Position numbers and translations under genes: made by a program
Shown: positions 39,131-61,817 of the stretch, one piece after another
How the letters are laid out: every line of letters starts with the position of its first letter
How positions within the stretch are numbered: the stretch's first letter is position 1
Assembly (NCBI GenBank): GCA_947625775.1
Contig: CANQPM010000004.1
Span: 124,001 to 188,000 of the forward strand
Length of the DNA stretch: 64,000 nt
DNA from: an uncultured Lachnospiraceae bacterium
GTDB lineage: Bacteria > Bacillota > Clostridia > Lachnospirales > Lachnospiraceae
Reading direction: 5' to 3'
The notes under the pieces: generated by a model
Databases searched by the model: none
Told to the model about the DNA's origin: nothing
Seen by the model: only the letters and a program-made list of their open reading frames with translations

Positions 39131-39892
39131 TTACTCTGTATATGGTATGCCGCGGCGTTCTTTGATACCGTTGAGGATATGTTTTTTCAGTTCGGGTACG
39201 CGGCTTTTGTCCATTTCGGGTACGCCTTCGAGACGGTAGGGTATGCCTAGCTCGTCATATTTCTTTTTGCCCATGGTGTGGTATGGGAGGACGTCGAGAG
39301 CCTTTAGGTTGCTTAGTCCGCCGATGAAGTAACCGAGCTTGTGCAGGTCTTCGGGATTGTCCGTGATGCCTGGGACTACGACGTGGCGTATCCATATGTC
39401 AACGTGCATTTTGTCAAGGTACTCTGCAAACGCAAGTATGCCGTCGTTTGGTTGCTTTACAAGCTCCTTGTGTTTTTCGGGGTCTATGTGTTTGATGTCG
39501 AGCATAACTAAATCTGTGACGGCGCAGAGCTTGTCAAGCTTTGCAAGCCATTCGGGGTTGGCGTTTGGCTTATAGGCGATGCCTGAGCTGTCAATGCAGG
39601 TGTGGATGCCGCGTTCTTTTGCCATGGTGAAAAGCTCAAGCAGAAAGTCAATCTGCATGAGCGGCTCGCCGCCTGTTACCGTGATGCCGCCGCCCTTGTA
39701 AAAAGGCTTGTTTCTCTCGTAATTTTCGAGGATTTCCGCAGGCTCCATAAGAGTACCCGCGTTCATCTCCCAAGTGTCGGGATTGTGGCAGTAGGCGCAT
39801 CTCATAGGGCAGCCCTGCACGAAAACAACGTAACGCACGCCCGGTCCATCGACCGTGCCAAATGATTCAAGTGAGTGTATTCTTCCCTTCAT
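39131..39892 (-). CDS. pflA: pyruvate formate-lyase activating enzyme
   Basis: 253 residues. Radical SAM motif QGCPMRCAYCHNPDTW (Cys28, Cys32, Cys35) preceded by the PflA-specific start GRIHSLESFGTVDGPGVRYV. Further conserved parts are GGGITVTGGEPLMQ, DIKHIDPEKHKELVKQPN and VLPYHTMGKKKYDELG. It generates the glycyl radical on PFL. In most relatives it lies directly after pflB. Here it points away from the split pfl genes, in the same orientation but 18.6 kb downstream of them. A TATAAT about 70 bases before its start suggests its own promoter. Confidence 0.95.
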   Translation of the reverse strand: MKGRIHSLESFGTVDGPGVRYVVFVQGCPMRCAYCHNPDTWEMNAGTLMEPAEILENYERNKPFYKGGGITVTGGEPLMQIDFLLELFTMAKERGIHTCIDSSGIAYKPNANPEWLAKLDKLCAVTDLVMLDIKHIDPEKHKELVKQPNDGILAFAEYLDKMHVDIWIRHVVVPGITDNPEDLHKLGYFIGGLSNLKALDVLPYHTMGKKKYDELGIPYRLEGVPEMDKSRVPELKKHILNGIKERRGIPYTE

Positions 39893-58556: not shown

Positions 58557-58802
58557 TTAAATCTGCTCATGGAATGTACGAGAGATAACGTCAGCCTGCT
58601 GTTCAGGTGTAAGCTTGATGAAGTTTACAGCGTAGCCTGAAACGCGGATTGTAAGCTGAGGATAATTCTCGGGATGCTTCTGAGCGTCAAGCAGTGTCTC
58701 TCTGTTGAGCACGTTTACATTAAGGTGATGGCCGCCCTTTGTAGCATAGCCGTCTAATAATGATACTAAGTTGTCAACCTGTGTCTGATTGTTGTCTGCC
58801 AT
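58557..58802 (-). CDS. separate glycyl-radical subunit of pyruvate formate-lyase
   Basis: 81 residues with its own AGGAGGT site eight bases before [23 protein letters not shown], then [20 protein letters not shown]: this is the complete C-terminal radical domain of PFL (Gly56 in RVSGYAV is the radical site). In ordinary PFL these residues follow the barrel in the same chain; the large chain here (59211-61250) stops just before this point. It resembles the stand-alone GrcA (YfiD) spare domain, but here the large chain has no domain of its own. Last gene before the terminator. Confidence 0.93.
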
Positions 58803-58830
58803 AGTAATATACCTCCTAATAAAAATTATA

Positions 58831-59040
58831 TTATTGATAATCGTCTAACCCCTGGTGCAACGTAGGTACGCTGCATGCCAAGGGAGTTCTGGAACAGTCT
58901 GTACATCCAAGAGTTTCTACTTCCTTTGTAGAATTTGCCGCCTCGTCAACATCTACATTGAAATGTCCCACAGCCTTGTCTTTGGAAAATCCCGCGTCAA
59001 GCTGCGCCACGAGGTCGTCAATCATAGATTTCTCGTCCAT
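58831..59040 (-). CDS. unknown small Cys-containing protein of the pfl operon
   Basis: 69 residues from ATG 59040 (TAGGTG six bases upstream; a GTG nine bases earlier is also possible). [20 protein letters not shown] then HFNVDVDEA echoes [20 protein letters not shown] of the radical subunit, suggesting descent from its N-terminal half. The radical motif is absent. It ends with Cys residues in [17 protein letters not shown] (CxxC...C) and QGLDDYQ. It lies between the repeats and the radical subunit and is in the same operon. It could be an assembly or activation factor, or a degenerate duplicate. Not recognised. Confidence 0.6.
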
Positions 59041-59082
59041 AATCAGCACCTATTCCTCTCAAAAATCGTAATTAAAAATTAG

Positions 59083-59250
59083 TTGTTAAGGTCGATTTCG
59101 ATATCGCCAGAGAAGACCGAGGGCTTCTCTGGCGTTAGATAACATTAATTGTTAAGGTCGATTTCAATATCGCCAGAGAAGACCGAGGGCTTCTCCGGCG
59201 TTAGATAACATTAATTGTTAAGGTCGATTTCGATATCGCCAGAGAAGACC
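59083..59250. repeat. 66-bp tandem repeats copying the pflB 3' end
   Basis: TTGTTAAGGTCGATTTC occurs at 59083, 59149 and 59215, exactly 66 bases apart. Each copy encodes, on the minus strand, [11 protein letters not shown] and a stop; the third is the true end of the large PFL gene. Copies 1 and 2 also form a hairpin (GCCAGAGAAG / CTTCTCTGGC at 59106-59133, and 59172-59199). The operon mRNA thus has two identical hairpins after the large gene. Confidence 0.93.
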
Positions 59251-61250
59251 TTAGCTTCCTTACCAAGCGCGTTAGGGATAATGGTAAATGTATTAGAGAT
59301 ACCATCCTGTGCATCCTTAAACGGCAGCTTAGATACTGAAGACAATGAAGCTACAGCGCCATGAGTATCACGGCCGTGCATAGGGTTAGCGCCAGGAGCA
59401 AACGGCTGTCCCTTCTTACGTCCATCAGGTGTGTTGCCTGTTGCCTTGCCGTATGTTACGTTTGAAGTAATAGTAAGGATAGAAGTTGTAGGAATACCAT
59501 TCCTGTAGGTATGATGTCTTCTTACGGCAGTCATAAACCTGTGAACGATATCCTGAGCGATAAGGTCTACACGGTCATCATCATTGCCGTACTTAGGGAA
59601 GTCGCCCGTTGTCTCAAAGTCAACGATTACGCCGTCCTCATCACGAATAGGCTTAACCTTTGCATACTTGATAGCTGATAATGAGTCAGCAACAATTGAA
59701 AGACCAGCAACGCCTGTAGCGAAGTATCTCTTAACATCTCTGTCATGAAGAGCCATCTCTGCTCTCTCATAGCAGTATTTGTCATGCATATAGTGAATGA
59801 TGTTGAGCGTATTTACATATACGTCAGCCTGCCATTCCATCATGTCGATGAACTTGCTCATTACATCATCGTAATCAAGCACATCGCCTGTTACAGGGCG
59901 GTACTTAGGACCAACCTGCTTCTTTGTAACCTCGTCTACACCACCGTTTAAAGCATAGAGCAGGCACTTAGCAAGGTTAGCGCGAGCGCCGAAGAACTGC
60001 ATCTCTTTGCCGACAACCATTGAAGATACGCAGCAAGCGATAGCATAATCATCACCGTGAGTAACTCTCATGAGGTCATCATTCTCGTACTGGATTGAAG
60101 AGGTCGCGATAGACATCTTAGCGCAGTATCTCTTCCAATTCTCAGGAAGTCTTGTAGACCAGAGAACTGTAAGGTTCGGCTCGGGTGAAGGTCCAAGGTT
60201 TGTAAGTGTGTTGAGGTAACGGAATGACATCTTTGTTACCATAGGACGTCCGTCAACGCCAACACCGCCGAGTGACTCTGTTACCCAAACAGGATCGCCT
60301 GCGAAAATCTGGTTGTACTCAGGTGTACGAGCAAACTTAACGCAGCGCAGCTTCATAATAAAGTGGTCAACGAACTCCTGAATCTGCTCCTCTGTAAATG
60401 TGCCGTTCTTTAAGTCTCTCTGAGCATAGCAGTCAAGGAATGTAGATGTACGTCCAAGTGACATAGCCGCACCGTTCTGCTCCTTAACAGCGCAGAGATA
60501 ACCGAAGTAAGTAGCCTGGATAGCTTCCTGTACGTTTGAAGCAGGCTTAGAAATGTCGCAGCCGTAAGAAGCAGCCATTTCCTTCATCATCTTAAGAGCT
60601 GTCATCTGCTCTGAAAGCTCCTCACGAAGACGGATAACATCATCTGTCATAACGCGGCCTGTAGAATCTTTCTGATCCTGCTTATCCTCAAGAAGTCTGT
60701 CAATACCATAAAGAGCAACACGTCTGTAATCGCCGATGATACGTCCACGCCCGTAAGCATCAGGAAGACCTGTGATAATGTGTGAAGAACGGCAAGCTCT
60801 CATCTCCTGATTGTAAGCGTCGAAGCAGCCTGCATTGTGTGTTTTTCTGTGTGTTGCAAAGAACTCGCTGATTTCAGGATCAACCTCATAACCGTTGTCC
60901 GCGCAAGCTTTCTCTGCCATTCTGATACCGCCGTAAGGCTGTAAAGAACGCTTGAAAGGCTTATCTGTCTGGAATCCTACGATTTTCTCCTTGCTCTTGT
61001 CGAGGTATCCCGGACCATGAGAAGTGATTGTAGAGATAACCCTGGTATCCATATCAAGAACACCGCCATGTTCTCTTTCCTGCTTCTGAAGGTCAAGAAC
61101 CATCTCCCATAAATCCTTTGTGTCCTGTGTAGGTCCGGCTAAGAAAGACTCATCTCCGTCATACGGCGTGTAGTTTCTCTGAATAAAGTCACGCACATTA
61201 ACTTCGCTTTCCCATTTGCCACCTACAAAATCTTTCCATTCTGGTCTCAT
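59211..61250 (-). CDS. pflB: formate acetyltransferase (PFL) large chain without radical domain
   Basis: 679 residues from ATG 61250 (AGGAGG upstream). Catalytic Cys pair in [10 protein letters not shown] (Cys406-Cys407) and the PFL barrel motifs [43 protein letters not shown], and [17 protein letters not shown]. It stops after [11 protein letters not shown], about 70-80 residues short of normal PFL, and the missing radical domain is encoded separately at 58557. Together they should convert pyruvate and CoA to acetyl-CoA and formate. Codon use is that of a highly expressed gene. A strong promoter lies upstream. pflA is 18.6 kb away. Confidence 0.95.
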
Positions 61251-61369
61251 TTTGCAAAGCCTCCTATTAATAAATTTAATATTTTGCGGCATAAAGCCGT
61301 AGGTTACAATAAGAGATGTAATTTTGTTACTTATGCCCTGATAAATTGTTAATTACACCTTGTATTTGT

Positions 61370-61622: not shown

Positions 61623-61817
61623 ATGGCAGATATAACCAAGGATATGACTATCGGTGAGATTTTGAGAGTAAAGCCTGATGTGGCGCCTGCGCTTATGGAG
61701 GCGGGCATGCACTGTCTGGGCTGTCCTTCGGCTCAGGGAGAGACTCTGGAGGAGGCGGCGATGGTTCACGGCATCGATATCGACTCTCTTATGTCAAAGA
61801 TTGCTGGTATTGCGTAA
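61623..61817 (+). CDS. DUF1858 protein
   Basis: 64 residues: [20 protein letters not shown] then [20 protein letters not shown]. The HCxGC(P/A) motif with one CxxC pair and the ETLEEAAxxHGID ending define DUF1858, found alone or fused to hybrid-cluster and sulfur-related proteins. The CxxC may serve redox chemistry or metal binding. TGGAGG lies seven bases before ATG. Divergent from the pfl operon, and a link to anaerobic metabolism is likely but unproven. Confidence 0.9.

Follow-up and report, generated by a model that had tools for sequence, protein, structure and literature searches.

Does a pyruvate formate-lyase (PFL) locus in which the large chain ends ahead of the glycyl radical domain, with that domain encoded by a small gene of its own, represent a damaged pflB with a repair protein beside it, or a working enzyme that is naturally made in pieces? 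The question is raised by a locus (Table 1) in a 64,000-nucleotide stretch of contig CANQPM010000004.1 (positions 124,001 to 188,000, assembly GCA_947625775.1, uncultured Lachnospiraceae bacterium), which was analysed as a whole and is called the window here. The preliminary description had reported a large chain of 679 aa with Cys406-Cys407 that stops ahead of the radical domain, and the coordinates, TIGR01255 and Pfam all agree with it. The gene starts with an ATG at 61248-61250, has AGGAGG at 61260-61265, and would give a protein of 693 aa if an alternative in-frame ATG 5′ of this start were used. The large chain scores as a PFL against TIGR01255 (1101.7 bits, cut-off 994.2), with a match that stops at position 665 of 744, and the Pfam Gly_radical model matches it at positions 1-50 of 106 only; the glycyl radical domain, which a PFL of TIGR01255 carries in the same chain, is here a separate gene. 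The aligned part corresponds to residues 10-680 of the E. coli PFL, and Cys406-Cys407 is invariant in an alignment of 38 split large chains (38/38). An AlphaFold model of the large chain (pLDDT 70.9, shallow alignment, weak active-site loops) was used for fold look-up only.

The radical domain with RVSGYAV was confirmed as a gene with its own AGGAGGT. The encoded radical subunit covers TIGR01255 positions 661-743, so that the large chain and the small protein sum to one PFL. It matches NF038360 (GrcA3) with an E value of 2.4e-48 (162.1 bits, cut-off 158) and scores 101.8 against TIGR04365 (GrcA/YfiD), below the cut-off of 170. Its radical glycine is invariant in the 38 split loci. Since it aligns to residues 678-757 of the E. 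coli PFL, the break between the natural chains falls near E. coli residue 680, N-terminal to the 695/696 cut tried in E. coli, and the radical piece thus carries one extra helix. A gap of 408 bases containing a 69-aa ORF separates the large-chain and radical genes.

Table 1. Features of the split PFL locus and of related genes in the window
Feature	Position	Strand	Description
PFL-activating radical SAM enzyme	39131..39892	(-)	253 aa; the genome's only match above the TIGR02493 cut-off
Radical subunit (GrcA3)	58557..58802	(-)	81 aa; Gly56 in RVSGYAV
Ribosome-binding site of the radical subunit	58811..58817	(-)	AGGAGGT, read from the sequence
Middle gene	58831..59040	(-)	69 aa; homologue of the radical-domain helix and strand; no radical glycine; cysteines
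Tandem repeat	59078..59250	(-)	66 bp, 2.6 copies; spans the stop codon of the large chain; the RNA that separates the large-chain gene from the two small genes folds into strong hairpins
PFL large chain	59211..61250	(-)	679 aa plus stop; Cys406-Cys407; radical glycine absent; C-terminal GDIEIDLNN
Divergent neighbour, redox disulfide domain (TIGR03980, DUF1858)	61623..61817	(+)	64 aa

A PF02901 search of the assembly (3.75 Mb, 98.77% complete, 42 contigs) gave one match, the window's large chain. No other full-length pflB was found, and a second PFL in the organism's own genome was therefore rejected. Repair of the GrcA/YfiD type needs an intact PFL, and the sole PFL-like gene of this genome is without a radical domain. 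Three stand-alone radical genes were found with the radical profile, the window's and two on contig C3. Fused PFL was absent in 33 of the 38 split genomes searched (completeness is 90% or more and contamination 5% or less in 30 of the 38), and the other five (G085, G132, G265, G284 and G296) also have a PFL-type radical domain in a frame of about 755 aa; none was found in 25 of 25 named split genomes, chosen by us from 64. Weaker radical-profile matches in long frames were counted as other glycyl radical enzymes without individual inspection. As these searches found no fused PFL in the organism's own genome, in 33/38 and in 25/25, the radical piece looks like an obligate partner of the large chain, which is how the preliminary description had read it.

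We compared the locus with those of relatives. A TIGR01255 search of 299 family (Lachnospiraceae) genomes gave a match in 256, and a first set was formed from the window and all 37 short rows (match ending at or before 704) among the matches listed. The identical split layout recurs in these related pfl loci: a separate downstream radical ORF with R[VI]SGYAV is present in 38 of 38, which, having been picked for shortness, give no estimate of frequency. From a scan of named-species genomes the best 80 loci were taken, comprising 64 split, 13 fused and 3 cut by a contig end, with split examples in Ruminococcus albus, Ruminococcus bicirculans, Catonella morbi, Collinsella aerofaciens, Olsenella, Spirochaetales and Gastranaerophilales. 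All 64 named split loci have the radical gene downstream, 61 by motif, one complete with SGYAI (L146), and two (L106 and L126) begun and then cut by a contig end. A sequencing error was rejected because 102 loci share the split, and the recurrence of the separate gene likewise excludes an assembly error, in line with the earlier view that a sequencing error is unlikely. An even draw of 398 phylum genomes contained 119 with a PFL-type radical domain at E ≤1e-25; the clearly stand-alone ones were confined to G000 and G180, both Lachnospiraceae, and two further domains in frames of 198 and 252 aa were left unclassed. According to these surveys the split is not general but frequent in parts of Lachnospiraceae and found in some other lineages as well.

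All three genes of the locus are under purifying selection. In comparisons with four relatives the large chain has a dN/dS of 0.04-0.09, the middle gene one of 0.08-0.10 and the radical gene one of 0.05-0.14, values that are rough because synonymous differences are high (0.50-0.73 per site), and a pseudogene large chain was rejected on this basis. These data bear on the explanation in which the large chain is a pflB that is damaged or decaying and the radical protein serves, like GrcA/YfiD, only as a spare part for repair. NCBIfam names the radical protein an autonomous glycyl radical cofactor, and similar small proteins repair PFL in E. coli, as described in an excerpt of PMC8683613, both of which speak for it. 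It nevertheless appears very improbable, since the searches yielded no full-length PFL that it could repair in the organism's own genome, in 33/38 or in 25/25, since the selected large chain is short in 102 loci of several lineages, and since the extra helix stretch at the N-terminus of the radical piece cannot be aligned with YfiD. We read the locus as a naturally split pyruvate formate-lyase, the cell's only PFL found, and from the sequence evidence put the probability of this reading at roughly 0.8.

The segment between the genes may also be of regulatory interest. The RNA fold of 59040-59240 on the (-) strand has a z score of -4.5, with none of 200 shuffles equally stable and no T run seen by eye, and the hairpins could set the ratio of the chains. 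Of 101 split loci (window excluded) 28 have a DUF1858 gene in their flanks, as do 3 of 43 fused loci, counts from which no claim is drawn because flank lengths are unequal between loci. On contig C3 of the same genome (L007:4907-9333) there are two extra radical-subunit genes, protein-identical, each behind a palindrome TGTAACAAATGTTAC(A/G), and a Crp/Fnr-type regulator gene lies upstream of the first. The sequence TGTAACNNNNGTTACA occurs exactly at 2 places in the genome, one of them beside an extra radical gene, with 0 exact sites for the control; with up to 2 mismatches TGTAACANNTGTTACA is found 15 times per strand and the control 37 times. A search of the window for a Crp/Fnr-like box with up to 3 mismatches gave 3 sites against 3.07 by chance, none near the pfl promoter, and such a box near the extra radical genes is only suggestive. 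Additional stand-alone radical genes were seen in other genomes: G247 has a second one on a contig other than that of its pfl locus (L174:4877-5119), with no C3-like palindrome seen by eye upstream, and Olsenella phocaeensis (L185) has two about 5.4 kb apart whose products agree in their last 92 residues.

The ORF between the two genes had been passed over as filler; it is instead a conserved third part that is homologous to the front half of the radical domain and lacks the glycine. A homologue of this middle gene is present in 19 of the 38 first-set loci and in 36 of the 64 named split loci. An hhalign comparison (probability 96.1, E 3.5e-9, 59 columns) shows homology between the front half of the protein, IDDxVxMLDxxMxxGxGHxNV, and the front of the radical subunit, and the middle-protein profile also matches radical domains genome-wide, at E 1.7e-7 and weaker. 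In place of the radical glycine there is usually a cysteine motif, C-x(2-6)-AC-x-V-P-T-L-x-x-G-x-D. Among 55 middle proteins, 23 have two cysteines, 28 have three and 4 have four; that of the window has three cysteines and a histidine in the order CxxC..C..H. Besides the cysteines, the best conserved residues are those of the helix and strand (D15, G25, H26, N28). A search for a solved relative found none (best E 0.41), and AlphaFold modelled the middle protein poorly (pLDDT 63.2).

Split rows without the middle gene have a large-chain tail with at least two cysteines, often in the same motif (e.g. C..ACKVPTLHKGIDDD). Over the 102 split rows, the middle gene is present in 55, the cysteine tail in 46, both in 0 and neither in 1, so that at least two cysteines on either the tail or the middle protein are found in 101 of 102. 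No middle-gene match better than E 5e-7 was found in the 19 tail-type first-set genomes, and all 18 mid-type genomes and the window's own gave one at E ≤1e-12. The sole row with neither element is Collinsella L134, in whose genome no fused PFL was found either, and the cysteine element is thus not strictly required; the middle proteins of L058 and L075, which end directly after CxxC, also go against a strict either-or rule. The tail cysteines are spaced from CC to CxxxxxxC, a variability that implies no fixed chemistry. Fused chains with at least two cysteines within 45 residues past the core amount to 1 of 43 (L033), and 85 of 102 split chains, as against 0 of 43 fused ones, have an acidic short strand, G[DE][ILMV], after the core.

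A FastTree tree of 145 large chains (L050 and L100 being identical) placed the 102 split rows and 14 fused rows in one group (99) versus the 29 other fused rows. The split/fused label changes 4 times on this tree, for which, given fused outgroups, one fission and three re-fusions are the simplest reading. An IQ-TREE tree of 60 rows is in agreement, with 3 label changes on that subset, and the AU test rejects a single pure split clade (p 0.021; the group was named after the first tree, and the model is a simpler one). The middle gene was not found in any of the 14 nested-fused genomes (14/14), where the only matches were the fused PFL itself. Two nested fused chains, L033 and L127, have an insert between the core and the radical domain with three cysteines and one, respectively, and this insert looks like a relic. 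The middle-gene and cysteine-tail forms switch at least 14 times at fewest on the FastTree tree, a number that may in truth be lower because 47 of 141 inner branches are weak. The split itself is old and widespread.

What the cysteine element does can be framed in several ways. We tentatively favour an arm acting as a dithiol guard, which would keep or re-reduce the active-site cysteines, or discharge the radical, when the radical subunit is away; such a role would explain both the interchange in cis and in trans and the absence of the gene from re-fused genomes. Alternatively, the element may be a metal or iron-sulfur site tuning the radical, for which the small subunits of 4-hydroxyphenylacetate decarboxylase and benzylsuccinate synthase serve as metal/iron-sulfur comparators. 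The CxxC..C..H arrangement of the window's middle protein would suit this, and an accessory subunit of benzylsuccinate synthase regulates thiyl radical formation according to the title of PMC12590467, but with just two cysteines in 23 of 55 middle proteins and highly variable spacing in the tails we regard a metal site as unlikely. It is likewise doubtful that the middle protein is an inactive mimic of the radical domain, holding the empty seat as an assembly factor or inhibitor with the cysteines secondary: the conservation of D15, G25, H26 and N28 in the domain helix and strand would be expected of such a mimic, yet the tail-type loci retain the cysteines without the docking part, which makes the cysteines look like the shared function. 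That the middle ORF is a chance or unrelated gene could be argued from the lack of any Pfam or NCBIfam family above cut-off, and is scarcely credible, as a 55-sequence profile matches at E ≤1e-11 in 78 of 299 family genomes (a count of rows), dN/dS is about 0.09 and the position between the two genes is fixed; this candidate was rejected by the homology to the radical subunit (hhalign) together with the occurrence in family genomes.

Radical pieces were also found outside cellular genomes. In a viral collection the radical profile matched at least 62 contigs, of which at least 13 (L186-L198, sizes up to 333 kb, with phage status being the collection's label) carry the helix-bearing radical type. 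Among the matches listed, the ORF is complete, at 77-95 aa, in 12 of these 13 and cut short in L197; L191 contains a 680-aa split large chain adjoining the radical gene, and L194 and L198 have PFL-like sequence across two ORFs. The viral matches listed further include 44 that are YfiD/Y06I-like by reading and five fused PFLs, maybe host DNA.

For the working of the split enzyme we propose that the large chain would hold the substrate pocket and the Cys406-Cys407 pair, and that the 81-aa subunit would dock at the seat of the C-terminal domain of a normal PFL, the helix bearing NLVSLLDGY giving firm docking. The PFL activase would activate the radical subunit, and the radical, stored on Gly56, would be passed to the cysteine pair. 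Once oxygen has cut the radical subunit, replacement of the small piece alone should suffice; such exchange is plausible given the two extra radical genes in the same genome and the viral contigs that carry one. While the radical piece is off, the active-site cysteines would be exposed to oxidation, and the cysteine-pair arm would be supplied in trans by the 69-aa middle protein, docking via its copy of the helix and strand, or in cis by the large-chain tail. Taken together, the locus may encode an enzyme of three functions, a large chain, an exchangeable radical subunit and a cysteine arm derived from a glycine-less duplicate of the radical domain that docks in or reaches the radical seat, where it would shield the active-site cysteines, reduce them again or discharge the radical, so that anaerobes survive oxygen and reload the radical piece, some phages perhaps supplying it; we offer this composite as a possibility with the odds still against it. 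The E. coli enzyme is instructive here. PflB G734A with GrcA in trans yields formate in vivo at an intermediate level, according to a portion of PMC12338860. In extracts from PMC8683613, E. coli PFL cut at 695 shows undetectable YfiD binding and 32-fold less radical, and its activity once activated equals that of the wild type; by this partial account of poor radical uptake, a split PFL is not automatically competent.

The preliminary description knew of no well-described natural split PFL. That statement holds in so far as no description was found in open-licence PMC papers, the literature covered, and has to be qualified in that the curated NCBIfam name GrcA3 and two PDB chains exist, so the split has not gone wholly unnoticed. 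These chains, 38lb and 38la (formate acetyltransferase), are the closest solved ones to the large chain; they were not among the 34 sequences matched by the radical-subunit search at E 0.001 and not in the fold-search results (library ending 8 April 2026). Past the core, 38lb runs on with GECDMCEM. Both look like split large chains, and 38la could be a made truncation.

Fission was also seen in a second glycyl radical enzyme, of the PFL2/glycerol-dehydratase type (L172:5826-8449 and L173:5610-8126 (-)). Its large chains stop at position 708 of 786 without a cysteine tail, the next gene encodes a radical subunit of 84-92 aa, and L172 also contains an activase. PFL2-type radical subunits in frames of 85-106 aa were counted in 5 of 299 family genomes, leaving out three longer frames of 193-266 aa, and large chains were seen in two (L172 and L173). 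A further small family (L164:5051-5344, on contig C8 of the same genome as the window, and L165-L169) has a front of the same type and the motif YHHGRCD[VI]GSP[WF]A; Pfam and NCBIfam gave no match for the L164 protein, and inspection by eye of the surroundings of the L164-L169 genes revealed no recognisable glycyl radical enzyme.

PFL is a standard example of an enzyme cut by oxygen, as an excerpt of PMC8683613 puts it. It is central to fermentation in many anaerobes, and many genomes with the split layout come, by their record titles, from gut or rumen samples, where the picture of oxygen damage and repair would change. The locus would show that a glycyl radical enzyme tolerates fission at this joint and would offer a natural system for swapping a radical domain in vitro, and the either-or pattern of the cysteine element is a testable rule that calls for an explanation.

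Class I ribonucleotide reductase NrdA has a mobile C-terminal cysteine pair that re-reduces an active-site disulfide; the likeness of the cysteine arm to this tail is offered as an analogy, with no claim of homology. Compared with PflB (TIGR01255; E. coli 1H16/2PFL), the split enzyme consists of two chains, cut near E. coli residue 680, and adds a new acidic tail and the cysteine-pair element. The radical subunit shares with GrcA/YfiD and T4 Y06I (TIGR04365) the nature of a stand-alone glycyl radical domain, its residues 20-80 corresponding to about 65-125 of GrcA. In contrast to GrcA, it is without the N-terminal half, the match starting at GrcA residue 65, it has the NLVSLLDGY stretch, which does not align with YfiD, and no intact PFL was found for it to repair. 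The name of NF038360, GrcA3, implies a spare part, whereas here it denotes the only kind of PFL radical carrier found, and the 'spare part' beside a short pflB is probably a working radical subunit.
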